A stretch of DNA of 64,000 bases, taken from positions 62,001 to 126,000 of the forward strand of contig NZ_JAFEIG010000033.1 in the NCBI RefSeq assembly GCF_017495225.1, in the 5' to 3' direction. Under the pieces are notes generated by a model. The model did no database searches. It was given only the letters and a program-made list of their open reading frames with translations, and was not told where the DNA came from. Below, piece after piece: positions 9,773-40,300 of the stretch (within the stretch, counting starts at the first letter, position 1; the number at the start of each line of letters is the position of its first letter). Origin of the DNA: Daejeonella sp. Lineage in GTDB: Bacteria > Bacteroidota > Bacteroidia > Sphingobacteriales > Sphingobacteriaceae. The translations under genes were made by a program, and so were the position numbers.

Positions 9773-11416
9773 ATGAATATTTCCATAATCCTGCCATACT
9801 TAAACCCTTTATATAGCCATCATCCGATAGGTTTTATTGTGGAACGACTACTCAAAAATCAAGGAATCAAGATTAGTACCAATTTACTTAACCAAAAGCT
9901 AACTGAACACCCTTATTTTCCGAGTTTATTAAGTATAAGCGATGTACTTACAGAAATTGGTATACCAAGCAATGCATACAAAACTGATCTGGATGACCTT
10001 AAACAAAACTTTGAAACTGCCGTACTGATACCTATGCAGATCGAGCAGGGCTTATTTTGTATCCTTGATAAAATAAAAGACGGGAATTTCAGAGTTATTA
10101 CCGAAAAAGGGGAAGTGAAGTGGTTTGCAGAAGAAGATTTTATTAAAGCATGGTCCAGTGGTGTTTTGTTAGATGTCGAACAGCCTGCGGTGCCCATAGT
10201 ATCTGTTAAGACTGATCCAAAAGTTTATCCAGGTTATTTAAAAAGTCTGTTGGCAATCTGTTGGGCAATATTAACTTTTTATGTTCTTCAAAGCCGGCTA
10301 TCAGATTTAAATTTACAGCAAGTTACCTTAGTAATGTTAAATCTCAGTGGAACCTTTGTCTCATGGTTGCTGATATTACAACAATTAAATAAAAATAATG
10401 TCTTGGTTCAGCAGTTATGTCAAAGCAAAACCCACGAAGGTTGCAACTCTGTTTTAAACAATAATACGGCCATGATTACCACTTGGTTTAGTATGGCAGA
10501 AGCAGGCTTTGTATATTTTGCAGGAATGACATTACTTACCTTGTTTTCTAATACATACTCTTCACTTTATTTGCTTTTGTTTTGCGCGCCTGCATTTTCA
10601 TTATATGCCATTTATTTACAAGCTTTTATAATTAAGCAGTGGTGTAGATTGTGCATGGCAGTACATACAATTGTAATTCTCTCGTTTTTAATAGCTGTTT
10701 ATAATTATTGGGGAGGTATCCCTTTATTCCCAACTTTTGGAGAGTTAAGTGTTTTCATTTTGCCCGGGTTAGTGTGGCTTTTCCTTAAGCCCTACATTAT
10801 TCAGCTAAAAGATATTAAACATTTTAAGTCGGAATTCACTAAATTAAAATACAATCCTGATATTTTTCTTGCCTTGATAACCCAAAAATCCAGAATAAAT
10901 ATTCCTCAAAGCCTGAAAGTATTTACACTTGGAAATAGGGCAGCAGAGCATGAACTTACCTTTGTTTCAAATCCTTACTGCGGACCCTGCGCAATGGCCC
11001 ATGAAATAATTGATGAATGGTTAAAACAAGACCTGAACTTCAAGATCAATATTATTTTTATTCATTCCACTGATAAAAATGATAGACAACGGGTTTTTGT
11101 ACAACATATAGCGAAAATATCTGACCAGGAAATATTTAAGGAAGTTATTCATGCTTGGTTTAGCTCGCATGGTACAAAAGATATCAGCAAATGGGCAGAA
11201 GAGTATGATCTTCAAAATAACGAATTACCTTATGATGAAGCGCATTTGCAAGCATGGGTTAATTTAGCTGAAATTGCTGCTACACCAACTTTTTTTATAA
11301 ACGGTTACCCTCTTCCCAAAACTTACCAACTTGCACAAATACGCTATTTGATATCTGAAGTTCCCATTGAATATTCGGATACGAGCTCCCCTATCCTGCA
11401 AACTGAAATAATATAA
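9773..11416 (+). CDS. C39-like / VKOR / DsbA-like fusion membrane protein
   Basis: Three-part protein of ~547 residues. Residues ~15-140 resemble a peptidase C39 domain (HPYFPSLLSISDVL, then SNAYK) but lack the catalytic Cys, and the His region reads GLFCIL, so it should not cleave. Residues ~150-360 form a multi-pass VKOR domain with the loop pair CQSKTHEGC and the active-site CRLC. Residues ~385-540 are a DsbA/thioredoxin-like domain with CGPC (NPYCGPC) and the cis-Pro signature ATPTFF. VKOR-DsbA fusions oxidise cysteines to disulfides in the periplasm and pass electrons to quinone. ATG at 9773 is preferred over TTG at 9767. It opens a locus of six-Cys peptides, so the inactive C39-like part may bind their double-glycine leaders (inference). 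Confidence 0.85.
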   Translation: MNISIILPYLNPLYSHHPIGFIVERLLKNQGIKISTNLLNQKLTEHPYFPSLLSISDVLTEIGIPSNAYKTDLDDLKQNFETAVLIPMQIEQGLFCILDKIKDGNFRVITEKGEVKWFAEEDFIKAWSSGVLLDVEQPAVPIVSVKTDPKVYPGYLKSLLAICWAILTFYVLQSRLSDLNLQQVTLVMLNLSGTFVSWLLILQQLNKNNVLVQQLCQSKTHEGCNSVLNNNTAMITTWFSMAEAGFVYFAGMTLLTLFSNTYSSLYLLLFCAPAFSLYAIYLQAFIIKQWCRLCMAVHTIVILSFLIAVYNYWGGIPLFPTFGELSVFILPGLVWLFLKPYIIQLKDIKHFKSEFTKLKYNPDIFLALITQKSRINIPQSLKVFTLGNRAAEHELTFVSNPYCGPCAMAHEIIDEWLKQDLNFKINIIFIHSTDKNDRQRVFVQHIAKISDQEIFKEVIHAWFSSHGTKDISKWAEEYDLQNNELPYDEAHLQAWVNLAEIAATPTFFINGYPLPKTYQLAQIRYLISEVPIEYSDTSSPILQTEII

Positions 11417-11417
11417 T

Positions 11418-11632
11418 TAATAGATCATATTAAAACAAAGAAATTGTTTGGCCAACAATGTTTGCCTGTCATCAGAATAACAGGATAGGGAAAGCCGAAC
11501 CCGAAAATAGAGGCCTAAATTATTCAAATTTTTAATCATGAAAAAATTAAGTTTAAAAATGAAAGGCATTGGCGAAGTGCTAAGCAGAGAACAAATGAAA
11601 AATGTTTTAGGTGGTCGTGCATCTGAGGTTGA
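11418..11632 (+). repeat. Leader-cassette duplication, copy 1
   Basis: This 215-bp stretch recurs at 14107-14321 (constant offset 2689) with about six differences by eye. It starts 2 bp after the stop of the VKOR gene, covers the whole upstream region and the leader-coding part of the first peptide gene, and ends six codons into the core. It contains the near-palindrome ATTGTTTGGCCAACAAT (11443-11459) and the small inverted repeat CCTGT..ACAGG. Confidence 0.9.
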
Positions 11633-11735
11633 TGGATGCAAAAATGAATGTGGTCCAGATTTACCTCCTTGTGCTATAGGAGATTGTAAAAACGTGGCTT
11701 GTGGTACTCAGGAAATATTCAAAATGTGCTACTAA
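11538..11735 (+). CDS. Double-glycine leader precursor peptide 1, six-Cys core
   Basis: 65-residue precursor. The leader (residues 1-26) contains MKGIGEVLSREQMKNVLGG, a typical Bacteroidota double-glycine leader (bacteriocin/ComC-type or GG-Bacteroidales natural-product precursor), and is basic and Cys-free. The predicted 39-residue core, RASEVDGC onward, has exactly six Cys in C-x3-C-x6-C-x4-C-x4-C-x8-C spacing and ends CY. It should be cleaved after GG and exported by a C39-type ABC transporter; none is encoded in the window. Neighbouring thiol-redox genes suggest three disulfides in the mature peptide (inference). A hairpin follows the stop codon. Activity (bacteriocin, signal or other) is unknown. 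Confidence 0.8.
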   Translation: MKKLSLKMKGIGEVLSREQMKNVLGGRASEVDGCKNECGPDLPPCAIGDCKNVACGTQEIFKMCY

Positions 11736-11741
11736 TTGTAA

Positions 11742-11771
11742 CAAAGGGGTTCGGTAATTCGAGCCCCTTTG
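11742..11771 (+). terminator. Hairpin after precursor gene 1
   Basis: CAAAGGGGTTCG and CGAGCCCCTTTG form a stem of about 12 bp with one mismatch and a 6-base loop, 6 bp after the stop codon. No T-tract follows, so partial termination or mRNA 3-prime-end protection of the peptide message is more likely than full termination. Confidence 0.7.
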
Positions 11772-11821
11772 AATAGTTTAAGTGGGAAGTGTATAAAGAA
11801 TCAATTTAAATTTCAGGACAA

Positions 11822-13348
11822 ATGCAAGATAATAAGAGATTTAGAACAATGGGTTTAAGGCATTTTATCTATTGTTTGTTTTTTGTAGCAATTATCGATA
11901 GTGTTCAAGCTCAATCAAAATTCATTAAAACTCCTCCACAGTTAGCCAACATAAAAAGGCTTCAAGCAATGGTTGAGGCTAATCCTGAAAATTTGAAAGC
12001 TCACCAGACTTTCCTGAATGCCTTGGCTCCTGAGGACCCTTATCTTAAGATCCAATACGCTATATGGTTAAAACGTTTTCCAAAATCATTCAATGTGCCA
12101 TTTTCAATTGGAAAATCGCTTACCAATAGGCTTTATCCGGAAGGCAGAGCCTTTCTTCTTAAGGCTGTAGAATTGAATCCAAAACATGCTGAAAGTTGGT
12201 TTTTATTAGGAATTGATGCAGCAAACTATGGGGACACTTTAGCCCAGCAGAAGTATATGGCAAAAGCGAAAGAGGCTGAACCAGAAAATTCTAAATATGC
12301 ATTTCAATATGCATACTCATTTAAAGATACAAATCCTGCCACATTTGATTCCCTATCTATAGCTGTTGCCTTTAAGTTTCCTGATAGTGAGGAGGCGCCT
12401 TTAGCACTTACTTACCTTGCCTTAAACTCTAAAAATCCAAATGAAAAAATTGCATTTTTTGAGCAATTATATAAAAGATATTCAGCAAAGCCATATCCCT
12501 CTTCTTCTTACGGCATTCAGGCTTTTTTCAATTTACTACTTGAGAAAAATCCACAAAGGGCATTTGAAGTAGCTTTGAATATGGTAATTGAACCAAAGGT
12601 AAATCACTATGAATGGAGTAAAAATTTAAATTTAGTAAGAACTTATAGAGATGCCAAGAATATGATGGATTTAAATAATCCTTCAAAGGCACTTGAAGTA
12701 CTTGATGGTCTTTCTGCAGAAAACAGAAAAAATGATAGATATGTTTTATTCAAAACAGAAATCATAGAAGCAATTTATGATAGTGAAGCTGCTTATGATA
12801 CCTTATCATTGTTCTATGCGAAACGTCCCGGAATTAAGAGTCGTTTTGCCTTATTAGCTTATGCAAAGAAGTTTGGAAAAGATGAAGAACAAGTTGATTT
12901 GGATATTCGAAGTTTACGAGAAGCAGCAGCACCAATAGCTAAGGATTTTTATTTACAGAGATACACCGATACCAACAGAGTTTCTCTTTCGGATTATAAA
13001 GGCAAGATCATATTACTCACATATTGGTTTCCTACTTGCCCCCCATGCTTAGCAGAGTTTCCACACTTAGAATCGGTTGTAAAAAAATATACTAATAGGG
13101 AACTAGTTTACCTAGGTATTAATACAGAAAGAAAACAAGATGCATACGTTCTGCCATTTTTGAGGTCTAAGAGGTATAGTTTTCTTCCTCTGAAAGAAGA
13201 ACCCAGAGATAAAGGCAATTTACATTATTGGGGGGTTCCTCAAAATTATCTGATTGATCAAAAAGGACGTGTTATGTTTTCAGATTTCCGAATTGATGAG
13301 AGCAACGAAGATATGCTGGATTTAATGATCAAGGAACTATTAGAGTAA
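11822..13348 (+). CDS. TPR protein with C-terminal TlpA-like thioredoxin domain
   Basis: Exported protein of 508 residues. A signal peptide ends SVQAQ (~31; an internal Met at codon 10 is an alternative start). Residues ~35-370 are helical TPR-like repeats (ELNPKHAESWFLLG, AEPENSKYAFQYAY). Residues ~375-505 form a TlpA/AhpC-TSA-type thioredoxin fold with the active site PTCPPCLAEFP and the cis-Pro loop WGVPQNYLID. Such proteins usually reduce or isomerise disulfides in the periplasm. It lies between the first and second six-Cys precursor genes, so it probably serves their folding. The TPR part may bind a partner or substrate. Confidence 0.85.
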   Translation: MQDNKRFRTMGLRHFIYCLFFVAIIDSVQAQSKFIKTPPQLANIKRLQAMVEANPENLKAHQTFLNALAPEDPYLKIQYAIWLKRFPKSFNVPFSIGKSLTNRLYPEGRAFLLKAVELNPKHAESWFLLGIDAANYGDTLAQQKYMAKAKEAEPENSKYAFQYAYSFKDTNPATFDSLSIAVAFKFPDSEEAPLALTYLALNSKNPNEKIAFFEQLYKRYSAKPYPSSSYGIQAFFNLLLEKNPQRAFEVALNMVIEPKVNHYEWSKNLNLVRTYRDAKNMMDLNNPSKALEVLDGLSAENRKNDRYVLFKTEIIEAIYDSEAAYDTLSLFYAKRPGIKSRFALLAYAKKFGKDEEQVDLDIRSLREAAAPIAKDFYLQRYTDTNRVSLSDYKGKIILLTYWFPTCPPCLAEFPHLESVVKKYTNRELVYLGINTERKQDAYVLPFLRSKRYSFLPLKEEPRDKGNLHYWGVPQNYLIDQKGRVMFSDFRIDESNEDMLDLMIKELLE

Positions 13349-13376
13349 AACATATATGTTATTCAAATTTTCAATC

Positions 13377-13589
13377 ATGAAAAAATTAAGTTTAAAAATG
13401 AAAGGCATTGGAGAAATGCTAAGCAGAGAACAAATGAAAAATGTTTTAGGTGGTAAAGAATTTGAGGGTGGTGGAAACAATTGTGTGTGTTTACCTACAG
13501 CTTTGTTATGCAGCGGTGGTAATCCTTTAATGGCAACTACGTGTTACAGTACGAGTTTTGGAAATGGTATAAATTGTTGTAGATATTAA
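13377..13589 (+). CDS. Double-glycine leader precursor peptide 2, six-Cys core
   Basis: 70-residue precursor starting at the ATG of MKKLSLKMKG (13377); an upstream in-frame ATG at 13356 would only add MLFKFSI. The 26-residue leader is identical to that of peptide 1 except Met for Val at position 14, and ends VLGG. The 44-residue core (KEFEGGGNN onward) is unrelated to the other cores in sequence yet again has exactly six Cys: CVC, LLC, TTC and a terminal NCC. The upstream TTATTCAAATTTT is shared with the other two precursors, but the long upstream cassette is not. A hairpin follows at 13596. Confidence 0.8.
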   Translation: MKKLSLKMKGIGEMLSREQMKNVLGGKEFEGGGNNCVCLPTALLCSGGNPLMATTCYSTSFGNGINCCRY

Positions 13590-13595
13590 TGGTAT

Positions 13596-13620
13596 ACTGG
13601 GTCATTTCATATGATCCAGT
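13596..13620 (+). terminator. Hairpin after precursor gene 2
   Basis: ACTGGGTCAT pairs with ATGATCCAGT (one mismatch) 6 bp after the stop codon; a weak AT-rich tail follows. Its position relative to the stop matches the hairpin of precursor 1. Confidence 0.65.
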
Positions 13621-13656
13621 TATTTAAAAGGGCAGTTTACCTCTAAATAAAAAATT

Positions 13657-14109
13657 ATGAAATTGTATATTCTAGGTCTATTATTTATAATTCAATTTAG
13701 TGCTGAAGCACAGATATTAGTTCCAGTGAAATGGACATTTACAAATACTAAAATTAGTACAAATGTTTACGATTTGCACTTCAAAGCATTCATCAAATCT
13801 GGTTGGCATATTTATTCTCAAGTACAACCTAAAAATAGTGTTGCTACACCATTAAATGTTGTTTTTGAAAAGAATAAGTCAATTAAATTTATAAATAACA
13901 TAAAGGAGGTCGGTAAACTTTCAAAACATTATGAAAAAAGTATTGGAGTTACTAATTATCAATATTCTAACAGCTTGGATGTGATTCAAAGGGTAGAAAT
14001 TTTAGCAGGAAGTAAAACTGTGATTAAAGGCACTTTAACCTATCAAACATGTAACGACAAACAATGTTTACCTCCAGAGGATGAATTTTTCGAAATTAGG
14101 ATAAACTAA
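13657..14109 (+). CDS. Stand-alone DsbD N-terminal (alpha) domain protein
   Basis: Exported 150-residue protein: a signal peptide ends SAEAQ (~19), then an immunoglobulin-like DsbD alpha domain with KSGWHIYSQ and the Cys pair in TYQTCNDKQCLPP near the C-terminus. In DsbD this domain receives electrons from the membrane beta domain and reduces periplasmic partners. The beta and gamma domains are absent here, so it would need a DsbD/CcdA-type donor elsewhere or could act as a shuttle for the TlpA-like neighbours. Its stop codon is the first base of the duplicated leader cassette, immediately before precursor 3. Confidence 0.8.
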   Translation: MKLYILGLLFIIQFSAEAQILVPVKWTFTNTKISTNVYDLHFKAFIKSGWHIYSQVQPKNSVATPLNVVFEKNKSIKFINNIKEVGKLSKHYEKSIGVTNYQYSNSLDVIQRVEILAGSKTVIKGTLTYQTCNDKQCLPPEDEFFEIRIN

Positions 14110-14321
14110 TAGATCATATTAAAACAAAGAAATTGTTTGGCCAACAATGTTTGCCTGACATCAGAATAACAGGATAGGGAAAGCCGAACCCGAAAATGGA
14201 TGCGTAAATTATTCAAATTTTTAATCATGAAAAAGTTAAGTTTAAAAATGAAAGGCATTGGCGAAATGCTAAGCAGAGAACAAATGAAAAATGTTTTAGG
14301 TGGTCGTGCATCTGAGGTTGA
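14107..14321 (+). repeat. Leader-cassette duplication, copy 2
   Basis: Copy of 11418-11632. Its left boundary coincides with the TAA stop of the DsbD-alpha gene, and its right boundary falls six codons after the GG of precursor 3. Visible differences are scattered single bases around GAAAATGGATGCGTAAA and two in the leader. Confidence 0.9.
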
Positions 14322-14457
14322 GGTTGAGGGTGGTGAGGGAAGAAAGTATCAATGTTGCCCTGGACCTGGGAACGGGACTGTCTCGTGTAGCGAATGTGTT
14401 TTTGTTCCAAGTGGCTCACATGCACAGTGTACTTTAGGGACTTTAACCGCTTGTTAA
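14227..14457 (+). CDS. Double-glycine leader precursor peptide 3, six-Cys core
   Basis: 76-residue precursor beginning at ATG 14227; an upstream in-frame ATG at 14200 lies in the duplicated intergenic DNA and is unlikely. The leader ends VLGG and is the same as in peptide 2. The 50-residue core starts RASEVEVEGGEG, sharing RASEVxV with peptide 1, then diverges. It has six Cys (QCC, SCSEC, QC, AC) and a Gly/Pro-rich PGPGNG loop. Shared leader with a different core suggests diversification by cassette duplication. A long hairpin follows at 14471-14518. Confidence 0.8.
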   Translation: MKKLSLKMKGIGEMLSREQMKNVLGGRASEVEVEGGEGRKYQCCPGPGNGTVSCSECVFVPSGSHAQCTLGTLTAC

Positions 14458-14470
14458 AATTATTGATTAT

Positions 14471-14518
14471 TTAAGTAGTTATTGTGCTGATTGTTTAAAA
14501 AGCATGATAGCTACTTAA
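14471..14518 (+). terminator. Hairpin after precursor gene 3
   Basis: TTAAGTAG pairs with CTACTTAA, with a second helix TGCT/AGCA inside. It starts 14 bp after the stop codon. AT-rich sequence follows but no clean T-tract on the plus strand. Confidence 0.6.
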
Positions 14519-14595
14519 AATATAATTAATTTATTTTTTCAATCATAAATAGAACAAGCACAAATCGTCTAAAAATACTTTTATTCAAATTTTTC

Positions 14596-15885
14596 ATGAA
14601 AAAATTATTTCTTATTGCACTAGTCTTTATCAGCCGCATTGTCGTAGCGCAGGAAAACAATGGGATAAAATTCCAACATAATCTTACTTGGACACAAATT
14701 AAACAAAAAGCGAAAAATGAAAACAAATACATTTTTATGGATGCTTTTACAACCTGGTGCCTGCCATGTAAAATTATGTCAAATGAAATTTTTCCTCAAC
14801 CGAATGTTGCAAATTTTTTTAATACCAATTTCATTAATGTAGCCGTTCAATTTGATGTAACAAAAAAAGACGATGATCATGTAAAAAGCTGGTATAATGA
14901 TGTTGATGAATTAAGGAAATCCTACAAGGTTGATAGTTACCCTACCTATCTTTTTTTCAATCCACAAGGAGAACTTGTACATAGCGTTTATGGTGCCTCC
15001 AAGACTTCTGAAGAGTTTATCACCAAATCTAAAGATGCTCTGGATCCCCAAAAACAATATTTAAGCCTTAAACAGCAATATAGTTTAGGTAACAAACAAC
15101 CAAATTTTCTTTTAATTCTTTTAAAATCAGCGATCCAGAATCGAGACAAGGATTTAATTCCCAAATTATCTTCTGAATATTTTGCCACACAAAAAGATCT
15201 TTTAATTGAGGATAACTTAAAGATTCTTGCTACTACCACCCTTAAAAGTTCTGATATTGGTTTTCCGGTTTTCAGAAATAATGCTATGAAGGCAGATCTT
15301 ATTTTAGGAATTGGAAAAAGTGCTGGAATTATCAGAACTATTTTGTTTGATGAAATTGCATTAAAATATCTTAGAAGTAGCAGTATAAAAACTAATTACG
15401 GTGGTGGAATGTTCGGTTATTCTGGTACTTTAAACCAAAAAGTTGAGTGGGATTTATTAAAAGCAGAATTAGATTCCCAATACCCTGAATTGTCAGAAGA
15501 AATATTCTTGTATGCAAAAGTTTTTTATTTTGAAATGGCCGAAAGTTGGCCAGAATATAGTTTGGCAGTTTCTGAATTCCGTTCAAAACATAAGGATCGA
15601 ATCAGTATTGATGATTTAAACCATTATGCTGGCATGATCTTACGAAATACTGATGATGAACAAAGTATTAAAGCAGCAATAAATTGGGCGAAGGAAAATA
15701 TGGAAAATTCCGTCGTGGACAAGAAATTGATGTGCTTATACACCTATTCTAATTTGTTATATAAGTCAGGTGATAAAAATGAGGCCATCAAACTGGTTGG
15801 TGAGGCAATTGAACTTACTTCCGGGAAGGACATTTATTTTGTAAAATTGCTAGATAAGATGAAAAAAGGCGAAAAGACATGGTAA
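14596..15885 (+). CDS. Exported thioredoxin-like protein with long C-terminal helical region
   Basis: 429-residue protein with a signal peptide ending RIVVAQ (~19). Residues ~30-145 are a thioredoxin-like domain (Thioredoxin_7 type): FMDAFTTWCLPCKIM carries the CxxC, and DSYPTYLFFNPQGE the cis-Pro. Residues ~150-429 are helical, with a tetratricopeptide-like end (LYKSGDKNEAIKLVGEA). A periplasmic disulfide reductase or isomerase role is a family-level inference. The start region TTATTCAAATTTTT-cATG resembles that of the precursor genes, so it likely shares their control. Confidence 0.8.
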   Translation: MKKLFLIALVFISRIVVAQENNGIKFQHNLTWTQIKQKAKNENKYIFMDAFTTWCLPCKIMSNEIFPQPNVANFFNTNFINVAVQFDVTKKDDDHVKSWYNDVDELRKSYKVDSYPTYLFFNPQGELVHSVYGASKTSEEFITKSKDALDPQKQYLSLKQQYSLGNKQPNFLLILLKSAIQNRDKDLIPKLSSEYFATQKDLLIEDNLKILATTTLKSSDIGFPVFRNNAMKADLILGIGKSAGIIRTILFDEIALKYLRSSSIKTNYGGGMFGYSGTLNQKVEWDLLKAELDSQYPELSEEIFLYAKVFYFEMAESWPEYSLAVSEFRSKHKDRISIDDLNHYAGMILRNTDDEQSIKAAINWAKENMENSVVDKKLMCLYTYSNLLYKSGDKNEAIKLVGEAIELTSGKDIYFVKLLDKMKKGEKTW

Positions 15886-15952
15886 AAAAATAGTGTTTTA
15901 GTTTAAGGGCTTAGCTTAGATTTTAATTTACTAGAAAGTAAAGTTAAATACC

Positions 15953-17083
15953 ATGAAAAAATATTTTTTAATTAGTCTGATAGGACTTTGTTTTTGTTAT
16001 AATTTGTACGCACAAAAAGCTGTTTTAAGTCCATTTACTATACAGGGCTATATTAATGCTGACACTGGTACAGTAAAATTGATTTTGCTAACTGACAGCA
16101 GTTTTTATCCCAAAGGCATACATGGTTTAAGTGCACAAGTAAAGAAAGGAAGGTTCTCTTTTCAAGGCCATCTGCCATACCCACAAGGTTTCGAATTAAT
16201 TTATGGTTCCAGTTATTTAAGTTCTTTGTTTGTTATAGAGAAAGGCGTTCAATCAATAACTATAAACATTGACTCTAATCGCACAACTCCAGACGTTCGC
16301 AATCAGGTCATGAAAGAACCCGCTGAAGTCAAAAATTTGCGAAATGGCTTAGCTGCTAAAATGAATTTACTTTATCACACTTGGGATAGCCTAAATAAAG
16401 TTTATCAACGTAAAATACCAAAGAATATTGAACTTGATTTGAGGGCTAAGCAGAATGCTTATTATGCTGAAAGTGACCAGAATTTATTAAAATATGCTAC
16501 TGCTTATCCAAATTCATATTTGGCATTCTGGAAATTTATTAGACTATCCAGTTTTTCTGGTCATGAAAAGATTTTTGATTCTATTTTTAATCAGTTTTCA
16601 GATTCTTTAAAAAACACACATGCTGGTAGAGTTCTGTCAAAAAATTTATATATAGGAGGTACACTTGGAATGGGAAAAAGATTTCCATCTCTTATCAGTG
16701 TAAGCGATCAGGGTAAAAAGCTAGACTCTACTTCCTTTTTAAAAAATCAATATACCTTAATTGATTTTTGGTATAGTAACTGCGGTCCATGCATTGCACA
16801 ATTTCCAACCTTAAAGAATTTATATGAGAAGTACAAAGCCAGCGGTTTCGAAATTGTTGGAGTTTCTACTGATAAAGAAAAATATAAAACAGATTGGCAA
16901 AATGCTATTAAAAAATACCAGCTGCTATGGCCTCAATATTGGGATAAGAATGGTGTTGAAGCAACTAAAATGTCTATAAATGCTTTTCCAACAAATTTTC
17001 TCTTAGATAAGGAAGGCATGATAATAAGGAAAAATATATCACCGGTTGAATTGGAGGATTTTTTGTTAAAACAGATTAATTAA
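15953..17083 (+). CDS. TlpA-family thiol-disulfide protein (DUF4369-type N-terminus)
   Basis: 376-residue exported protein. A signal peptide ends NLYAQ (~21). Residues ~30-130 are a beta-rich DUF4369-like domain (FTIQGYINADTGTVKLI), followed by a helical linker and, from ~235, an AhpC-TSA/TlpA thioredoxin fold with active site SNCGPCIAQFP and cis-Pro loop NAFPTNFLLD. Proteins of this architecture are common in Bacteroidota and act in periplasmic disulfide reduction. It closes the peptide locus and is the fifth thiol-redox gene in 7.3 kb. Confidence 0.85.
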   Translation: MKKYFLISLIGLCFCYNLYAQKAVLSPFTIQGYINADTGTVKLILLTDSSFYPKGIHGLSAQVKKGRFSFQGHLPYPQGFELIYGSSYLSSLFVIEKGVQSITINIDSNRTTPDVRNQVMKEPAEVKNLRNGLAAKMNLLYHTWDSLNKVYQRKIPKNIELDLRAKQNAYYAESDQNLLKYATAYPNSYLAFWKFIRLSSFSGHEKIFDSIFNQFSDSLKNTHAGRVLSKNLYIGGTLGMGKRFPSLISVSDQGKKLDSTSFLKNQYTLIDFWYSNCGPCIAQFPTLKNLYEKYKASGFEIVGVSTDKEKYKTDWQNAIKKYQLLWPQYWDKNGVEATKMSINAFPTNFLLDKEGMIIRKNISPVELEDFLLKQIN

Positions 17084-31472: not shown

Positions 31473-33032
31473 ATGGCTAAAATAACTCAGAAAGACATCA
31501 ATGATGCAGTTTGGAAAGCTTGCGACACCTTTAGAGGTAGCATTGACCCAAGCGTTTATAAAGACTATGTGCTTACCATGCTTTTCCTAAAGTATCTCAG
31601 CGATGTGCATGATGATAAAATGGAAAGCTATTTAGCCAAATACAATGGTGATGCGGAACGTGCCAAACGTGCTATGCAACACGAACGCTTTATTGTGCCT
31701 GAAAATAGCCATTTTAAATTCCTATATGATTCTCGAAACGAATCCAATGTTGGAGAACTCATAAATATTGCTTTGGCAGATTTGGAAGAAGCCAACCGTG
31801 AAAAATTGTATAGTGAAGACGGTGCAGGAATATTCCAAAACATTGACTTTAACAATAGCAAATTGGGTGAGCCTAAGGACAAAAACACCCGACTGAAAAA
31901 CCTATTGCTCGATTTTAATAAAGATGCTTTGAACTTACGCCCTTCGCATTTGGATGGGAACGATATTATTGGAGGTGCTTACGAGTACTTAATATCCAAC
32001 TTTGCGAGTGATGCTGGTAAGAAAGCAGGAGAATTTTACACACCAAGTGAAGTATCTACCTTGTTGGCAAAACTTACACACTCTAAACCCGGTTCTCGTA
32101 TTTGTGACCCTACTTGCGGTTCTGGTTCTTTGCTTATAAAAGCAGGTAACGAAGTAGGCTCTGATAACTTTTCACTCTACGGACAAGAAGCCAATGGAAG
32201 CACCTGGGCTTTGGCAGTGATGAACATGTTTTTGCATGGTTTTGATAATGCTACTATTCGCTGGGGAGATACCATACGCAACCCGAAACTGAAAGAAGGC
32301 GATACGCTAATGAAGTTTGATACCGTTGTAGCAAATCCGCCATTCTCTTTAGATAAATGGGGAAAGGTTGAAGATAAAGAAGGCGACAAAACCACCATCA
32401 GCTACGACCCTGAAACCGATAAATACAATCGTTTTTGGAGAGGTGTTCCACCTAAGAGCAAAGGCGACTGGGCATTTATCAGCCACATGATAGAAACGCT
32501 TAATGAACAAGGTAAAGCGGGTGTGGTAGTACCACATGGCGTATTGTTTCGTGGAAGCAGTGAAGGCCGTATACGCCAACGCACTATTGAAGAAAACCTA
32601 CTGGAAGCAGTAATTGGCTTACCTGCCAATCTGTTTTTTGGCACAGGTATTCCGGCGGCTATATTGGTATTTAATAAGCAAAAAACTAGCAACAGCTTTT
32701 TGTTTATAGATGCTAGCAAACATTACGAAAGTGCCAAAAACCAAAACAAACTGCGTGAAAGCGATATTGAACACATTGTGAATACTTACCGTGATTTTGC
32801 TGCGGGCAAAAACAACCCAGGGGTAGTGGAAGACAAGTTTAGCTATGTAGCCACTGCCGCAGAAATACAGGAAAACGACTTTAACCTGAACATCCCACGC
32901 TATGTGGACACTTTTGAAGAAGAAGCCGAAGTGGATATTGCTGGGGTGCAAACGGAGATTGTAAAATTGGAAGATGAACTGGTAAAAGTGCAAAAAGAGA
33001 TTGACGTTTATTTGAAACAGTTAATTGATTAG
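31473..33032 (+). CDS. hsdM: Type I restriction-modification DNA methyltransferase subunit
   Basis: 519-residue N6-adenine methyltransferase subunit. The N-terminal HsdM domain covers ~1-150. Motif I DPTCGSGSLL lies at ~212 (AdoMet binding) and catalytic motif IV NPPF at ~288. GEFYTPSEV (~190) is the usual HsdM lead-in. The C-terminal coiled-coil tail (EIVKLEDELVKVQKEIDVYL) binds HsdS. It methylates host DNA to protect it from HsdR. Confidence 0.96.
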   Translation: MAKITQKDINDAVWKACDTFRGSIDPSVYKDYVLTMLFLKYLSDVHDDKMESYLAKYNGDAERAKRAMQHERFIVPENSHFKFLYDSRNESNVGELINIALADLEEANREKLYSEDGAGIFQNIDFNNSKLGEPKDKNTRLKNLLLDFNKDALNLRPSHLDGNDIIGGAYEYLISNFASDAGKKAGEFYTPSEVSTLLAKLTHSKPGSRICDPTCGSGSLLIKAGNEVGSDNFSLYGQEANGSTWALAVMNMFLHGFDNATIRWGDTIRNPKLKEGDTLMKFDTVVANPPFSLDKWGKVEDKEGDKTTISYDPETDKYNRFWRGVPPKSKGDWAFISHMIETLNEQGKAGVVVPHGVLFRGSSEGRIRQRTIEENLLEAVIGLPANLFFGTGIPAAILVFNKQKTSNSFLFIDASKHYESAKNQNKLRESDIEHIVNTYRDFAAGKNNPGVVEDKFSYVATAAEIQENDFNLNIPRYVDTFEEEAEVDIAGVQTEIVKLEDELVKVQKEIDVYLKQLID

Positions 33033-33170
33033 TCAAGGAAAATTTTAAATATTCCTGATACAAATGCTTCTTATGTATCCAGACTGTTTTCTGAAATGGT
33101 AATTAATGGCCATATTGAAATAGCTGAAGAAACTAAACATAACCAAAGAACCTATAAATTGAAACCATGA
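33033..33170 (+). pseudogene. C-terminal remnant of a winged-helix protein gene
   Basis: Directly after the hsdM TAG and in the same frame, 45 sense codons run to a TGA at 33168. They read IPDTNASYVSRLFSEMV then HNQRTYKLKP, a helix plus wing as at the end of AlbA_2- or RhuM-like transcription-factor proteins. There is no start codon of its own near the 5-prime end except an internal ATG. Either it is a degraded gene left by insertion or deletion next to hsdM, or a readthrough extension. The rest of the gap to 33360 has no gene I can support. Confidence 0.45.
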
Positions 33171-33360
33171 TTGCAAAGAAAAATATACTGAAAATCAATA
33201 AGTTACAACTTTCTTCTTTGCAGATTTCTTTGCAAAGTTGCCAACTTAACACATTGACTTGTCTGCAGGTTCAGGCGGTGTCTTTTGTAGTTTGCAAAGA
33301 GCAAACAGTTATAAACCAATTTATTTACTCAAACTTCTTAGCACAAAACTCAAATTAGAA

Positions 33361-34650
33361 ATGATAACAGAAACAAAAAATACTAAAGCGTTTTATAATG
33401 CTGAAATTCCATGTGATTGGGAAGTATGTTCATTGGGGAGTTTAGCAGATAAGAAAAAAAAATGGAGTTTCACGGGTGGTCCGTTTGGTTCTAACTTAAA
33501 AGCAGAGGATTACACTGAAACAGGGATTAGGATAATTCAACTACAGAATATTGGAGATGGAGAATTTCTGGATAATTATAAAATTTACACTTCTGATAAA
33601 AAGGCAGATGAACTATTGAGTTGTAATATTTATCCTGGTGAAATTATACTTTCGAAAATGGGTGATCCTGTAGCTAGAGGTTGTTTTATTCCAAATGAAG
33701 ATAAACGATACTTAATGGCATCAGATGGAATTAGAGTCTTACCCGATTCTTCACGAGTTGATAGTTTCTATTTATTGAGTTTTATCAATTATTCAATTTT
33801 CAGAACAGAAGCAGTAAAGATTAGCACAGGGTCAACAAGGCAAAGAATTGGTCTTGATGATTTAAAATCCATAAAAATCCCACTTCCCCCACTTCCCGAG
33901 CAAAAAGCCATAGCCCAAGTGCTCAGCACGGCAGATGCCGCCATCCACACCACCGAAAAACTCATCACCCAAAAAGAACTCCTCAAAAAATGGCTCATGC
34001 AGCAATTGCTTACGGGAAAGAAAAGGTTGAAGGGGTTTGAGGGGGAGTGGAAGGAACATTCTTATGAGAAAATACTTAAAGTGGTAAAGAGAAATTTTGA
34101 TTGGGATGAAAACGAATTGTATAAACTGATTAGCGTTAGACGAAGGTCAGGAGGTATATTCTACCGTGAAGCTTTATATGGTCATCAAATACTAGTCAAA
34201 ACTTTACGTACAGCCAGCGAGGGAGATTTTTTGTTTTCGAAAATGCAAATCCTACACGGTGCATCAGCTTTGGTTACAAAAGAATTCGATGGGGCTAAGA
34301 TTTCAGGTTCATATATAGCTGTGGTTCCAAAAGAAAAGAAGCAGTTGAATATGGAATTCTTTCAATGGTATTCACAAACACCATATTTCTATCATCAAAC
34401 TTATATCTCAAGTTATGGTGTGCATATTGAGAAAATGACATTTGACTTTGATACGTTTCTTCAACTCGAAATGAAACTCCCATCCATCGAAGAACAAACC
34501 GCCATTTCCCAAGTGCTGCAAGCTGCAGATAAAGAAATCAGCCTGCTCAAAGCCAAAGCAGAAAAGTTGAGGGAGCAGAAAAAGGGGTTGATGCAGCAGT
34601 TGTTGACGGGGAAGGTGAGGTTGAAAATTGATAAAGTAAAAACTGCATAA
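33361..34650 (+). CDS. hsdS: Type I restriction-modification specificity subunit
   Basis: 429-residue HsdS with two target-recognition domains (~10-175 and ~235-370), each followed by a conserved helical spacer: LPPLPEQKAIAQVLSTADA ... LMQQLLTGKKRLKG, and SIEEQTAISQVLQAADKE ... GLMQQLLTGKVRLK. The spacers set the distance between the two half-sites of the recognised DNA. ATG at 33361 is preferred over 33259, since the family starts near the first TRD. The TRD-coding DNA is AT-rich and the spacers are much GC-richer, consistent with TRD exchange. Confidence 0.94.
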   Translation: MITETKNTKAFYNAEIPCDWEVCSLGSLADKKKKWSFTGGPFGSNLKAEDYTETGIRIIQLQNIGDGEFLDNYKIYTSDKKADELLSCNIYPGEIILSKMGDPVARGCFIPNEDKRYLMASDGIRVLPDSSRVDSFYLLSFINYSIFRTEAVKISTGSTRQRIGLDDLKSIKIPLPPLPEQKAIAQVLSTADAAIHTTEKLITQKELLKKWLMQQLLTGKKRLKGFEGEWKEHSYEKILKVVKRNFDWDENELYKLISVRRRSGGIFYREALYGHQILVKTLRTASEGDFLFSKMQILHGASALVTKEFDGAKISGSYIAVVPKEKKQLNMEFFQWYSQTPYFYHQTYISSYGVHIEKMTFDFDTFLQLEMKLPSIEEQTAISQVLQAADKEISLLKAKAEKLREQKKGLMQQLLTGKVRLKIDKVKTA

Positions 34651-34688
34651 TAAAGTGACTGGCTTTATTGTGCAAAAACGTATAGAAT

Positions 34689-35360
34689 ATGAACAAGACT
34701 TTTAATTTTTACTGCGATGAAAGTTGTCATCTCGAAAACGACCATCAGCCCTACATGCTTATTGGTTATATAAGCTGTTCAGTAAACCAGGTAAAACTGC
34801 ATTCTAAAAATATCCGACAACTTAAAGCAAAACACCATGTGTTCTATGAAACCAAATGGAGCGGTTTGTCCAAATCTGCCTACCCATTATACAACGATTT
34901 GATTGATTATTTCTTTGCTACCGATTTGCAATATCGTGCCATTGTGATAGATAAAAGTCAGTTAAAGCATGAGGAATACAATCAAAACCACGATGACTTT
35001 TACTACAAAATGTATTTCCAGTTACTCAGTAAAAAGTTGGTTCCCGAGCATAACTACAATATTTATCTCGATATCAAAGACACCCGTAGTGCCAAAAAGG
35101 TAAATGGTTTAAAAAACTTTCTGAACAATAATTTTATTTCCGTTCGCAACCTTCAAAATATCCGTTCGCACGAAAGTGAGTTGATGCAGTTGACCGACAT
35201 CATAACGGGTGCATTATCCTATCATTTAAGAGGGTTAAATACAGTTATTGCCAAGAATAAAATCATTGAAAAAATTCAACAGCACAGTAAGCTACCATTG
35301 AATCATTCAACGCCGAAAGACCATCCGAAGTTTAACCTTTTTTTCATCGATCTGAAATAA
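34689..35360 (+). CDS. DUF3800-domain protein
   Basis: 223 residues. N-terminal FNFYCDESCHLEN is the DUF3800 signature (D-E-S), followed by KYETKW-like FYETKWSG and a central IYLDIKDTRSAKKV. Near the C-terminus, RSHESELMQLTDIITGALSY provides further acidic residues that fit an RNase H-like metal nuclease fold. These proteins are frequent in R-M and defence islands, and their activity is uncharacterised. Only 5 bp separate it from the next gene, so the two form a pair. Confidence 0.85.
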   Translation: MNKTFNFYCDESCHLENDHQPYMLIGYISCSVNQVKLHSKNIRQLKAKHHVFYETKWSGLSKSAYPLYNDLIDYFFATDLQYRAIVIDKSQLKHEEYNQNHDDFYYKMYFQLLSKKLVPEHNYNIYLDIKDTRSAKKVNGLKNFLNNNFISVRNLQNIRSHESELMQLTDIITGALSYHLRGLNTVIAKNKIIEKIQQHSKLPLNHSTPKDHPKFNLFFIDLK

Positions 35361-35365
35361 TTGCT

Positions 35366-35902
35366 ATGCCATTAAATTTATTAAAGACATATCCGCAGCT
35401 ATTGGAGTTAGGTCATTTGAACAAGCATCAAAGGACTGAATCACTGCAAAGAATTTTTAAAAGAGACATTGAAGAAAACCCCGGATTGAATTTTAGAACG
35501 AAAACTATCCGTCCCATCAAAGGAGAAGAACCGGCAATGGTTATTTTATTCCGACATCTAACTACTGAAGAAATAGAAGTAGAAGATGAAAATGACAAGA
35601 AATACCCGAAGCGGATTTTTGAGATGGACAGGTCGAAACGCTTGCATTGGGTGAGATATCATCTTGAAGAAAGTAAAAAGGAAAATGTCGAGATATTCAG
35701 TGTTGAGGAAAGAGACCAAAAGAAGCGTAAGGATATCATTAGGACATACATCTATGATACAGAGCAGAAATACATTATTGTCTTAGACCCGCAGCGTACC
35801 CAAAAGGATTATTATTTGGTTACCGCATATTATTTAAACAAGGGTTACGGAGAAAAGAAAATTAAAAAACTAATAAAAAGGAGGCTTGCTGAACTGCATT
35901 AA
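35366..35902 (+). CDS. Uncharacterised basic protein paired with DUF3800
   Basis: 178 residues, not recognised with confidence. The middle (TKTIRPIKGEEPAMVILFRHL, EMDRSKRLHWVRYHLEE) is charged. The C-terminal ~55 residues (TYIYDTEQKYIIVLDP, DYYLVTAYYLN, KKLIKRRLAEL) resemble the end of small barnase/EndoU/colicin-like nucleases of the PBECR type, where the substrate strand is followed by a dY-YLxTAYY pattern. That likeness is tentative. Tight coupling to the DUF3800 gene suggests a two-gene accessory module inside the restriction island. Confidence 0.55.
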   Translation: MPLNLLKTYPQLLELGHLNKHQRTESLQRIFKRDIEENPGLNFRTKTIRPIKGEEPAMVILFRHLTTEEIEVEDENDKKYPKRIFEMDRSKRLHWVRYHLEESKKENVEIFSVEERDQKKRKDIIRTYIYDTEQKYIIVLDPQRTQKDYYLVTAYYLNKGYGEKKIKKLIKRRLAELH

Positions 35903-35909
35903 AAGCGCA

Positions 35910-35941
35910 AGGCTCGGTACATTTCTGGATGTATCGAGCCT
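35910..35941 (+). terminator. Hairpin after the DUF3800 pair
   Basis: AGGCTCGGTACAT pairs with ATGTATCGAGCCT (one mismatch) around a 6-base loop, 7 bp after the stop codon. The T-tract is poor (CTTTTT about 10 bp later). Confidence 0.6.
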
Positions 35942-36029
35942 CGAAACTCCTTTTTCCAAATGGGAAAATGAGCACTGCAAAGGTAAGCACATAATTTAAA
36001 AAAGCAAACAAAATCAAAAAACAGGCGCC

Positions 36030-37115
36030 ATGGCATATAGAATACCACAACTTCCTTTGGATTTCGATTTAGAATCTAAAGCCATCCTAAAAAAAACGGC
36101 CGCTGCACGTAGTGCATTAGCTGAAATGAAAGGAGCTGCCCTGAGCATTCCGAATGAAAGTATTTTAATCAGCACACTTTCTTTGCAGGAAGCCAAAGAC
36201 AGTTCGGCCATTGAGAACATCATCACCACACATGATGAATTATATCAAGGTGATTATTTAAAAAGGGAGTTTAAGTCAATTGCATCCAAGGAAGTTCACA
36301 ACTATGCCGAAGCCTTGCGTTGGGGTTTTGAAACGGTAAGGCAAAAGGGAATATTGACAAACAACCACATCATTCAAATGCAGGCAACCCTGGAAGAAAA
36401 TGATGCAGGTTTTAGAAAAGTGCCTGGTACAGAACTGAAAAATGAGCAAACGGGAGAAATAGTGTATACACCACCCCAAATCCATGATGAAGTGGTGGCC
36501 TTGATGAGCAATCTGGAGCAGTTTATGAATGACAATGCACTCAGCGATTGGGATCCATTGGTGAAAATGGCTATCATCCATCATCAGTTTGAGAGCATCC
36601 ACCCTTTTTATGATGGTAACGGAAGAACGGGAAGGATTATCAATATCCTGTATTTGGTAAAAGAAGGTTTGTTGAATTTGCCCATACTGTATTTAAGCCG
36701 CTACATCAATCAAAACAAAGCAGATTATTACCGCTTGCTCCAAAAAGTAAGAACCGAAAACGCCTGGGAAGAATGGGTGCTGTATATACTTGATGGTGTT
36801 GAACAGACTTCCTTGCAAACCATCAAAATCATTGAAGGGATAAAGAACCTGATGCTGAAGCACAAGAAGAAAATCAGGGAAAACACAAAGTTTTACAGTC
36901 AAGATTTAATCAATAACCTATTTAAGCACCCTTACACCAAAATAGATTTCATCATGACCGATTTGGACGTAAGCCGAATTACTGCCACCAAATATTTGGA
37001 TGAACTTGACCAAATTGGAATACTGAAAAAAGTGAAGCTTGGAAGGGATAATTATTACATCAATACCGACTTGTATAACTTATTGTCGAACGTGAATCAA
37101 ATAAAACATGTATAG
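36030..37115 (+). CDS. Fic family protein with C-terminal winged helix
   Basis: 361-residue Fic protein, expected to transfer AMP (or another NMP) to target proteins. The catalytic motif HPFYDGNGRTGR lies at ~190. SSAIENIITTHDELY at ~55 matches the N-terminal autoinhibitory helix (S/TxxxE(G/N)) that blocks ATP binding. The C-terminal ~70 residues (FIMTDLDVSRITATKYLDEL, IGILKKVKLGRDNYYIN) form a winged-helix DNA-binding domain. Two palindromes lie at its 3-prime end and just downstream, before hsdR. Whether it regulates or protects the R-M system is inference. Confidence 0.93.
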   Translation: MAYRIPQLPLDFDLESKAILKKTAAARSALAEMKGAALSIPNESILISTLSLQEAKDSSAIENIITTHDELYQGDYLKREFKSIASKEVHNYAEALRWGFETVRQKGILTNNHIIQMQATLEENDAGFRKVPGTELKNEQTGEIVYTPPQIHDEVVALMSNLEQFMNDNALSDWDPLVKMAIIHHQFESIHPFYDGNGRTGRIINILYLVKEGLLNLPILYLSRYINQNKADYYRLLQKVRTENAWEEWVLYILDGVEQTSLQTIKIIEGIKNLMLKHKKKIRENTKFYSQDLINNLFKHPYTKIDFIMTDLDVSRITATKYLDELDQIGILKKVKLGRDNYYINTDLYNLLSNVNQIKHV

Positions 37116-37140
37116 AAAAACCAATTTTCCTATACATGTT
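37105..37140. promoter_or_regulatory. Operator-like palindrome 1 (AACATGTATAG...)
   Basis: AACATGTATAGAAAA pairs with TTTTCCTATACATGTT around a short spacer. It overlaps the last codons of the Fic gene and lies ~200 bp upstream of hsdR. A partial half-site (TGTGTATAGTATGA) follows at about 37147-37160. Confidence 0.65.
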
Positions 37141-37263
37141 TCTGAAATGTGTATAGTATGAATTATCTGAGTAGAAAAGCTACAAAATGAAAAAAAGGTA
37201 AAATATTACTCAAAAATGGGTTCATGTAAAGAAAACAGACAAAAACTACACATGAGCAACGCA

Positions 37264-37297
37264 TCATGTATAGAAAAAAGCACTTTTCTATACATGA
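37264..37297. promoter_or_regulatory. Operator-like palindrome 2 (TCATGTATAGAAAA)
   Basis: A perfect 14-bp inverted repeat, TCATGTATAGAAAA / TTTTCTATACATGA with a 6-base spacer, is 22 bp upstream of the hsdR start codon. Same core (CATGTATAG-AAA) as palindrome 1, so both are probably bound by one regulator. A plain hairpin terminator is less likely because of the two-copy arrangement and lack of a T-tract. Confidence 0.7.
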
Positions 37298-37318
37298 CAC
37301 AAACGAAATTATAAAGCA

Positions 37319-40300
37319 ATGGAAACACCAAGTTTTAAAGAAGACCATATCAGCCAGATACCGGCATTACAAATGTTGGTGAATTTAGGCTACACCTATT
37401 TAAATCCGGCAGAAGCAGACAGGCAAAGAGGTGGCAAAACCACCAATGTATTGCTGGAAGATGTATTGCGGAAGCAGTTGAAGGAAATCAACAGCATCCG
37501 AGTAAGTGCTACTAAAACCAGCATTTTCACAGACGACAATGTTGAACGGGGTATATTGGCACTGAAAAACCTTCCCATGAACGAAGGCTACATTGCAGCC
37601 AGTGAAAAGGCCTACAACTTGCTCACTTTAGGCCAGGCCTTGGAACAAAGCGTAGATGGCGACAAAAAGAGTTTTACCCTGCAATATATCGACTGGAAAA
37701 ACATCAGCAACAATGTGTTTCATGTAAGCGAAGAATTCAGCGTAATGCGAAGCACAAGCAAAGAGCATTATCGCCCAGATTTGGTGTTGTTTGTCAATGG
37801 TATTCCACTTTGCATCATTGAGTGCAAAAGGCCTGACATGAAAGAGCCATTGAAACAGGCAATCAGTCAGCATTTACGCAATCAACAAGAAGACGGTATC
37901 CGCAGTTTGTACGTATATTCACAATTGACTTTGAGCATCGCTACACAAGAGGCTGCTTATGCAACCAATGCCACACCAGAAAAATTTTGGGCCAAATGGC
38001 AGGAGAAGTTTACCAGTGATGAGGAAGAGAAAAATTACAAATTAAACTTACAAGAGCTCAAAAACAAACCACTTTCTGTATCAGTAAAAGAGCAACTTTT
38101 TACTGACCGTTTCAAATACGTTCGTCAATATTTTGATGCTTTAGAGCAACGAGAAATTTTACCAACAGAACAAGATGAATACTTATTTGGCTTATGTCGT
38201 CCTGAACGATTGATGGATATTGTTTTCAATTTTGTTTTATTCGATAATGGTGATAAAAAAGTAGCCCGTTATCAGCAGTTTTTCGCCATCAAAAAATCCA
38301 TGCAACGCATCAGGAATGTTGAACACGGAAAGCGAAAAGGTGGTGTTATCTGGCACACTCAAGGTAGTGGAAAATCATTAACGATGGTGATGTTGGCACA
38401 AGCTATAGCGATGGAACCAAGCATTCGCAATCCTAAAATTGTATTGGTTACAGACCGAACTGATTTAGACAATCAAATTACAGGTACATTCCGTAAGTGT
38501 GGCAGGTTTGTAGAAAATGCAACTACAGGTCAGCGTTTGGTTGAATTATTGGAAAACAAAAGTGATGCAGTAGTAACTACCATCATCAACAAATTTGTGG
38601 CGGCCGTTAAGAAAATAGATAAGCCTTTAGAAAGCCATGATATTTTTGTTTTGGTAGATGAAGGACACCGAACACAGCATGGAACTTTTAATATTGACAT
38701 GCAAAAGACTTTGCCGAACGCCTGTTTCATTGCCATGACGGGAACACCGCTTTTTAAGAAAGACAAAAGCACAGCAGAGAAGTTTGGCGGTATGATTGAT
38801 GCTTACACGGTTGACCAAGCTGTAAAAGACAAAGCAGTTGTTCCATTACTTTATGAAGGAAGATTGGCTTTACAAAATGTAAATGCAAGTCCGATTGATA
38901 CTTTTTTCGGAATGGTTTCAGAACCCTTAACCGAATACCAAAAAGCAGACATCAAAAAGAAGTTTGCCCGATATGACCACTTGAATTCTGCCGAACAAAA
39001 AATGCGAATGATTGCCTGGAACATCAGTTATCATTTTCGAGATAACTGGCAAGGCAGAACACCATTTAAAGGGCAATTGGTTTGCGATAAAAAAGTGAAT
39101 GCCATTAAATACAAAGAATATTTGGATGAAATTGGCATTGTAACTAGTGAAGTGTTAATTTCATCCATTGACGAAAGAGAAGGTGAACAAAGTGCTTATG
39201 AGAAGTCGACAGAAAAAGAAAATCAATTTTGGAAAAAAATGATGGATGAACATGGCAATTCAAAAAGCTATGAAAAGAACATTATCAGTCGTTTCAAAAA
39301 TCAAAAAGACCCAGAAATTATTATCGTAGTTGATAAATTACTTACTGGTTTTGATGAACCTAAAAACACGGTTTTATATTTAACAAGAAATTTACAAAGT
39401 CATAAACTTTTACAAGCTATTGCTAGAGTAAACCGCATTTATCCTGACAAAGAATTTGGTTACATTATTGATTATTATGGTGTGATTGAAAACCTGGATA
39501 ATGCTTTGCAAATGTATTCATCTTTTGATGATTTTGATGATGAAGATTTGGCGGGTACACTCACCAATATTTCGGATGAAATCAATAAGCTACCACAAAA
39601 GCATTCAGACCTTTGGGATATTTTTAAAACCATTGCAAACAAACGTGATGCGGAGGCTTATCAACAATTATTAAAAGATGAGGCAGTAAGAGTTTTGTTT
39701 TACGATAAACTGGCTGCATTTGCCAAGGCTTTAAAACTGGCACTATCCTCAATTCAATTTCATAAGGAAATAGAAGATAGGGTGATCAGTCGCTACAAAG
39801 AAGATTTGACAATGTTCCTAAAATTGCGTTTGGCAGTTGTTGAGAGATATAGTGATGAAATAGATTACAAACAATACGAAGGACAAATTCAAAAACTGAT
39901 TGACACACATATCACCACCGAAAAAATTGAAACTATCACAGAGTTAGTCAACATCTTTGATAAGGACAAGTTTCAGGAGGAAGTAGAAAATACCATAGGC
40001 AAATCTGCCAAAGCAGATAAGATTGCGAGCAGAACAGCGAAGCACATCACAGAGAAAATGGATGAAGATCCAGCATTCTACAAAAAGTTTTCGCAAATGC
40101 TCAGTGAAACCATAGCCGACTATGAGGCTAAAAGAATCAGTGAGGCACAATACCTGAGCAAGGTGCAAGACATTATGAACAATATTTTGGCAAATACTGA
40201 CAATGATATTCCAGTTCAATTAAAAGATAGAGTTGTTGCGAAAGCGTTTTATGGACTAACAGTTGAAGCACTATCTGAAAAAATTATTGACAATTTAGTA

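Follow-up and report, generated by a model that had tools for sequence, protein, structure and literature searches.

How does a bacterium pair the cysteines of small secreted peptides, and on which side of its membrane? The question is raised by a locus at positions 9773-17083 of a 64-kb window, our term for the whole 64,000-nucleotide stretch of Daejeonella sp. DNA analyzed here, in which three precursors of double-glycine peptides alternate with five thiol-redox genes. We consider it likely that the locus serves to make hypervariable, disulfide-rich secreted peptides with the help of a dedicated, leader-guided oxidase, and there is strong reason to believe that the dedicated oxidase of these double-glycine peptides is the fusion protein encoded by the first gene. 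A preliminary description of the sequence had placed eight genes here, and all eight were verified at those positions. Its account of the precursors, a nearly identical, cysteine-free leader of 26 residues before unrelated cores of six cysteines each, was confirmed in the sequence (identity between cores is near that of shuffled sequences), as were the coordinates and named domains of the redox genes and, among the genes of the locus, the lack of any other modifying enzyme.

A C39-like, VKOR and thioredoxin fusion and its peptides

The first gene (9773..11416, on the + strand like all features described here) had been called a VKOR-DsbA fusion. Both of those domains are present, but a third, an N-terminal domain of the C39 fold, had been missed: the protein scores above cut-off for PF03412 (25.3 against 22), for PF07884 (52.3 against 27.5 bits) and for PF13462, and its AlphaFold2 (AF2) model (pLDDT 86.5), with six predicted transmembrane (TM) helices, matches PDB structures over all three domains. 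The C39-like domain (residues 14-147; 9812..10213) resembles 6mpz, a C39 domain solved with a leader peptide (Z 15.6, 2.9 Å over 123 residues), and also matches the fold of 3zua. Next comes the VKOR domain (residues 178-319; 10304..10729), by domain and PDB matches a quinone-coupled oxidase and close to Synechococcus VKOR (Z 14.7), followed by a DsbA-like thioredoxin domain with a CGPC motif (residues 370-534; 10880..11374) that matches ScsC (Z 14.7) and BdbD. Six redox cysteines are invariant in 51 homologues, namely the VKOR loop pair and CxxC (Cys216, Cys224, Cys291 and Cys294) together with Cys403 and Cys406. The position of the C39 catalytic cysteine, on the other hand, holds a cysteine in 60/60 exporters and in 0/51 fusions, and the catalytic histidine, present in 60/60 exporters, is not among the common residues of the 51 fusions. 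Judged from this alignment, the C39-like domain has a peptidase fold that has lost the catalytic residues, and docking of a leader, a role the preliminary description left out, is the likely function. Neither a second VKOR nor a DsbB turned up in a search of this genome, which argues that the fusion oxidase is dedicated, and most relatives of the same genus have no VKOR at all.

The leader common to the three precursors, MKKLSLKMKGIGE(V/M)LSREQMKNVLGG, spans 26 residues without a cysteine. Double-glycine leaders are defined here by a GG end, hydrophobic residues at -4, -7 and -12 and an acidic residue or Gln at -8, and LSREQMKNVLGG fits this definition with L-12, Q-8, M-7 and V-4 before its GG. 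Each precursor carries six cysteines: precursor 1 (11538..11735) has 65 residues with a 39-residue core and cysteine spacing 3-6-4-4-8, precursor 2 (13377..13589) has 70 with a 44-residue core and spacing 1-6-10-10-0, and precursor 3 (14227..14457) has 76 with a 50-residue core and spacing 0-9-2-10-7. A genome-wide search found three copies of this precursor type, all of them at 11538-14457, and a PHROGs search with the precursors gave no matches.

To examine cysteine parity, a single leader pattern was applied blindly to fusion loci and to control loci. At 50 fusion loci it recovered 65 peptides, 64 with an even, non-zero number of cysteines and one with an odd number, and none was cysteine-free; the 28 peptides from the controls, 23 C39-exporter loci without the fusion, comprised 15 with zero cysteines, seven odd and six even. 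Two of those six even peptides, with six and eight cysteines, lie at an exporter locus (L104) of a genome scored as fusion-negative, beside a deletion remnant of a fusion gene. When cores were clustered at 45% identity, 54/55 groups were even. Because the peptides are related, a plain binomial test would make the result look stronger than it is, and what matters is the contrast with the control loci. The preliminary description had proposed to ask whether adjacent peptides keep even cysteine numbers across Bacteroidota; within the order 64/65 do, and beyond it the rule is less strict. As scanned, 12 held-out loci from other parts of the phylum yielded 13 even peptides, four odd and one with zero cysteines, and one of the odd peptides turns even if, as we read it, its second GG is the leader end, leaving three. 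The even-cysteine rule is therefore strong, not absolute.

Even counts argue for pairing of the cysteines, and they bear on the proposal that the product is instead a thioether, radical-SAM or metal-binding peptide with the redox genes incidental. Precursor 1 has a leader with weak similarity to TIGR04149 (radical-SAM-modified) and to lanthipeptide leader models, but the scores fall below the curated cut-offs (18.3 against 25 and 15.1 against 27 bits, respectively), and no radical-SAM or other such modifying enzyme is found in the locus or in the genes that recur beside the fusion in relatives, leaving this proposal highly improbable.

The fusion is present in at least 152/400 genomes of the order, in a survey in which up to three candidates were scored per genome and 'negative' genomes may be undercounted, and it also occurs in several other Bacteroidota orders. 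A scan of genome contigs gave eight loci, and most relatives came from a search across genomes. The usual gene order is the fusion, then a cysteine-rich double-glycine peptide, TlpA, the C39 ABC exporter and HlyD. A double-glycine peptide lies no more than 3 kb from the fusion at 37/50 loci, typically 100-200 bp away on its downstream side, and some loci that seemingly had no peptide proved to encode leaders ending in AG, not GG (L030, L071 and L077), with even-cysteine cores. At 36/50 fusion loci a C39 exporter is encoded no more than about 9 kb away, at 35/50 there is an HlyD gene, and C39 exporters are found in 58/60 fusion-positive genomes versus 33/60 fusion-negative ones. The possibility that the redox genes are chance neighbors was rejected, as thioredoxin-like genes make up 42/314 genes near the fusion versus 7/245 far from it (p = 7e-6). 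A look for homologous loci without core cysteines or without redox genes did not overturn the preliminary proposal, though it brought up the three odd-cysteine peptides outside the order, and the idea of disulfide-rich double-glycine peptides with an oxidase of their own is strongly supported by the even-cysteine rule, by the conserved synteny and by the lack of another VKOR or DsbB.

Departures from the intact gene also occur among the relatives. In a same-genus genome a second copy of the fusion (L021:12963-14556) is split into two overlapping frames, and in genome G091 a deletion has left a remnant (L160:8811-9119) with the C39-like start alone, upstream of 6- and 8-Cys peptides. Glycosyltransferase-like genes, recognized by eye, recur beside some fusion loci (L021, L022, L023, L030 and L068), possibly marking a glycosylated subgroup.

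The remaining redox genes of the window, assigned by domain matches, encode an exported TPR-TlpA thioredoxin-like protein (11822..13348), an exported DsbD alpha-domain protein (13657..14109; PF11412), an exported thioredoxin-like protein of the DsbH/Thioredoxin_2 type (14596..15885), which has a homologue at a relative locus (L098), and an exported DUF4369-TlpA protein (15953..17083), whose TlpA-like cluster is present at 24 relative loci. The companion TlpA, thioredoxin and DsbD-alpha proteins bear signal peptides, judged by eye. Elsewhere in the window (31473-40546) lie type I restriction-modification genes, HsdM, HsdS and HsdR, with a Fic-family gene between them (36030-37115), again identified by eye.

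Orientation of the fusion and a proposed route to the disulfides

The six TM helices, taken from the AF2 model and from hydropathy, put the C39-like domain, the VKOR cysteines and the thioredoxin on one side of the membrane. To predict which side, we counted the share of lysine and arginine (K/R) on the catalytic and opposite sides in aligned segments. The fusions have 12.7% K/R on the catalytic side and 2.1% on the opposite side, whereas ordinary VKORs of the phylum have 5.4% and 19.3% (17/20 proteins), and the pattern is inverted in 51/51 fusions (p = 5e-10 versus the ordinary VKORs). Under the positive-inside rule, this inversion predicts that the catalytic side is cytoplasmic. The fusion's catalytic side thus probably faces the compartment in which its leader-recognition domain could meet its substrate, an orientation that the preliminary description did not include and that we predict from charge and alignment. 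The profile also aligns the C39-like domain and first TM helix with the same stretch of PCAT1, a protein with its C39 domain in the cytoplasm. The barrel of PCAT1 is reported to have room for a small protein (PMC6959990). Charge inversion is seen as well in three short VKORs from elsewhere in Bacteroidota (L126, L141 and L151), and given these examples, cytoplasm-facing VKORs may be commoner.

We propose that the C39-like domain docks the precursor leader while the thioredoxin domain would oxidize pairs of core cysteines and would itself be re-oxidized by quinone via the VKOR CxxC. The disulfides would form in the cytoplasm on the leader-bound precursor, ahead of export, after which a C39 exporter would cut behind the GG and secrete the folded peptide. 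The exported TlpA and DsbD-alpha proteins could act later, on mispaired or over-oxidized thiols, an isomerase role for the TlpA proteins being a guess. Within this scheme, leader binding by the C39-like domain and the disulfides of the cores are predictions. More tentatively, and with slightly more doubt than belief, we suggest a maturation class in which a cytoplasm-facing VKOR with a peptidase-dead C39 docking domain would install all disulfides before export in conotoxin-like, fast-diversifying peptides across Bacteroidota.

Alternatively, the fusion might have the conventional orientation, with VKOR and thioredoxin in the periplasm and the peptides oxidized once the exporter has removed the leader; the C39-like domain would then also be periplasmic, with another role, for instance to bind the exporter or to keep hold of the core. 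Characterized bacterial VKOR-thioredoxin proteins do face the periplasm, the neighboring TlpA, thioredoxin and DsbD-alpha genes encode exported proteins, and the C39-like and thioredoxin domains stand on the same side with six TM helices between them, all of which would suit such an arrangement. It is nonetheless rather unlikely, given that K/R is inverted in every fusion but the ordinary pattern is found in 17/20 ordinary VKORs, that the stretch aligned with PCAT1 has its C39 domain in the cytoplasm there, and that a leader-recognition fold would be useless once the leader has been removed.

Export in this genome

No C39 exporter is encoded within the window, as the preliminary description had stated. 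Its further suggestion, that export would rely on one elsewhere, fared less well: the genome has three C39 exporters, all on other contigs, and in a tree a very long branch (100/100) sets them apart from the one clade that takes in every fusion-linked exporter. Two of the three are flanked by cysteine-poor, class-II-like peptides. The third (contig C22, L009:5742-9712) has the layout of a bacteroidetocin locus, with two peptides bearing 15-residue GG leaders (four and two cysteines), a TM protein at the 5-TM position, a TlpA-like gene and the C39 ABC exporter. Since these exporters belong to another clade, the assembly holds no cognate exporter for the window peptides; either that exporter is absent from the assembly, or another exporter substitutes, or the locus is an orphan. 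A stand-alone C39 peptidase also occurs in the genome (contig C31, L010:7382-7903), 173 residues long with its catalytic cysteine kept, one TM helix and no ABC part, and no GG precursor was recognized beside it.

An orphan or decaying copy, in which the cognate exporter was lost and the peptides may not be secreted, is a real though lesser possibility that is compatible with a leader-guided oxidase. The separate clade of the three exporters, which have other peptides of their own, speaks for it, and decay does occur in such loci, as the split fusion at L021 and the remnant at L160 illustrate. However, all eight genes here are open, the exporter is likewise not local at 14/50 fusion loci, and an assembly of 36 contigs that is 98.6% complete may miss an exporter. 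Double-glycine leaders can, moreover, be handled by non-cognate exporters.

Taken together, several points count against the leader-guided, cytoplasmic oxidase that we favor. With exporters of another clade in this genome, export of the window peptides is uncertain; the signal peptides of the companion TlpA and DsbD-alpha proteins fit oxidation or isomerization outside the cytoplasm; and odd cysteine numbers occur in three of 17 peptides outside the order and in one within it.

Diversification, product and relation to known systems

Among the three precursor genes, leader DNA is 96-98% identical, and core DNA identity is 0.55-0.63 versus 0.51-0.56 for shuffled sequences, near the shuffle level. 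Relatives behave similarly, with median DNA identities over 45 pairs of 78% for leaders, 55% for cores and 54% for shuffled sequences. A 218-nt direct repeat occurs in two copies, 97% identical, one at precursor 1 (11415..11632) and one at precursor 3 (14104..14321). It takes in the 5′ region and the leader and breaks off a few codons after the core begins, indicating recent duplication of the 5′ cassette; the cores would then have been swapped or have diverged very rapidly. Core spacings across loci are highly diverse, though the core of precursor 1 has homologues at other loci and that of precursor 3 is similar to a peptide at L098 (spacing 0-14-2-7-7).

Many members of the family to which precursor 1 belongs share the spacing C3C(5-7)C(4-6)C4C(7-10)C. 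Relative to the six-Cys peptide at L022, a four-Cys homologue at L021, beside the split fusion copy, is missing both Cys 3 and Cys 6, a joint loss that would be expected if these were bonded to each other, as in knottins. Squash-inhibitor-like spacing is found in the cores at L064 and L090. For L064, knottins make up nearly all of the top PDB matches, though none is better than E 0.07, and the squash-inhibitor Pfam score is 16.3 against a cut-off of 22 bits. The window peptides had no match in a knottin and squash-inhibitor Pfam search, and the AF2 model of core 1 is a small beta hairpin (pLDDT 78.8) whose sole PDB match, a weak one, is a spider toxin (E 5.3, Z 2.2 over 30 residues). Models and spacings are suggestive, no more, of a knottin-like fold for these cores, the inhibitor cystine knot being defined by C1-C4, C2-C5 and C3-C6 bonds. 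As to function, we would give an even chance to an antibacterial peptide (bacteriocin), the default role in view of the leader type, the exporter and the diversification, with a signal or a toxin as the alternatives.

In the portions of the literature searched, we found no description of the C39-VKOR-thioredoxin fusion or its peptides, absence there not being proof, and a VKOR phylogeny paper does not mention C39. These data suggest a widespread and apparently undescribed way of making fast-changing, toxin-like disulfide peptides. If so, Bacteroidota would harbor a large stock of small disulfide-rich peptides that has gone almost unnoticed, with cysteine spacings that are often knottin-like, and the fusion would explain, in a way open to testing, how such peptides are made by bacteria that lack a general DsbA/DsbB system. 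The fusion would moreover be a natural enzyme that uses a removable tag to guide the folding of disulfide-rich peptides, a rare case of deliberate cytoplasmic disulfide formation and a tool for producing such peptides, and the even-cysteine rule combined with the fusion gene would be a simple marker for genome mining.

The closest described system is that of the bacteroidetocins (class IIf bacteriocins; Coyne et al., 2019, PMC6671954), which have a leader of 15-16 residues, a core of 42-48 residues with usually four cysteines, a 5-TM protein, a local C39 ABC exporter and a thiol oxidoreductase gene that is needed for full activity. The two share their phylum, a double-glycine leader, a cysteine-paired peptide and a local thiol oxidoreductase. 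Unlike in the bacteroidetocins as described there, the leader here has 26 residues, the cores have 39, 44 and 50 with six cysteines, and neither a 5-TM protein nor a C39 ABC exporter is found among the open reading frames at 9-17 kb; that paper mentions no C39-VKOR-thioredoxin fusion, and the term 'VKOR' is absent from its text. Ordinary bacterial VKOR-thioredoxin oxidases have the same VKOR fold, two cysteine pairs and fused thioredoxin, but, unlike the fusion, they lack a C39-like domain and an extra TM helix before the VKOR core, serve general clients and show the opposite charge pattern. An inverted VKOR from Aeropyrum pernix, proposed to act on the cytoplasmic side, was reportedly described by Hibender et al. 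in 2017; unlike the fusion, it is said to be archaeal and general, with no C39 or peptide linkage. Conotoxins and other knottins resemble these peptides in their conserved leader, hypervariable core and fixed cysteine number, and some relatives' cores have squash-inhibitor-like spacing, but conotoxins and knottins are made from eukaryotic Sec-type precursors, and the likeness, below cut-offs, may be convergence. In HlyB-type ABC exporters, to which the fold match 3zua belongs, a C39-like domain without peptidase activity binds the substrate; there it is fused to the transporter, whereas here it is fused to an oxidase. In our view the locus belongs to a known kind, that of double-glycine peptides with a dedicated thiol oxidase, within which a leader-guided and possibly cytoplasmic oxidase could become a new class.
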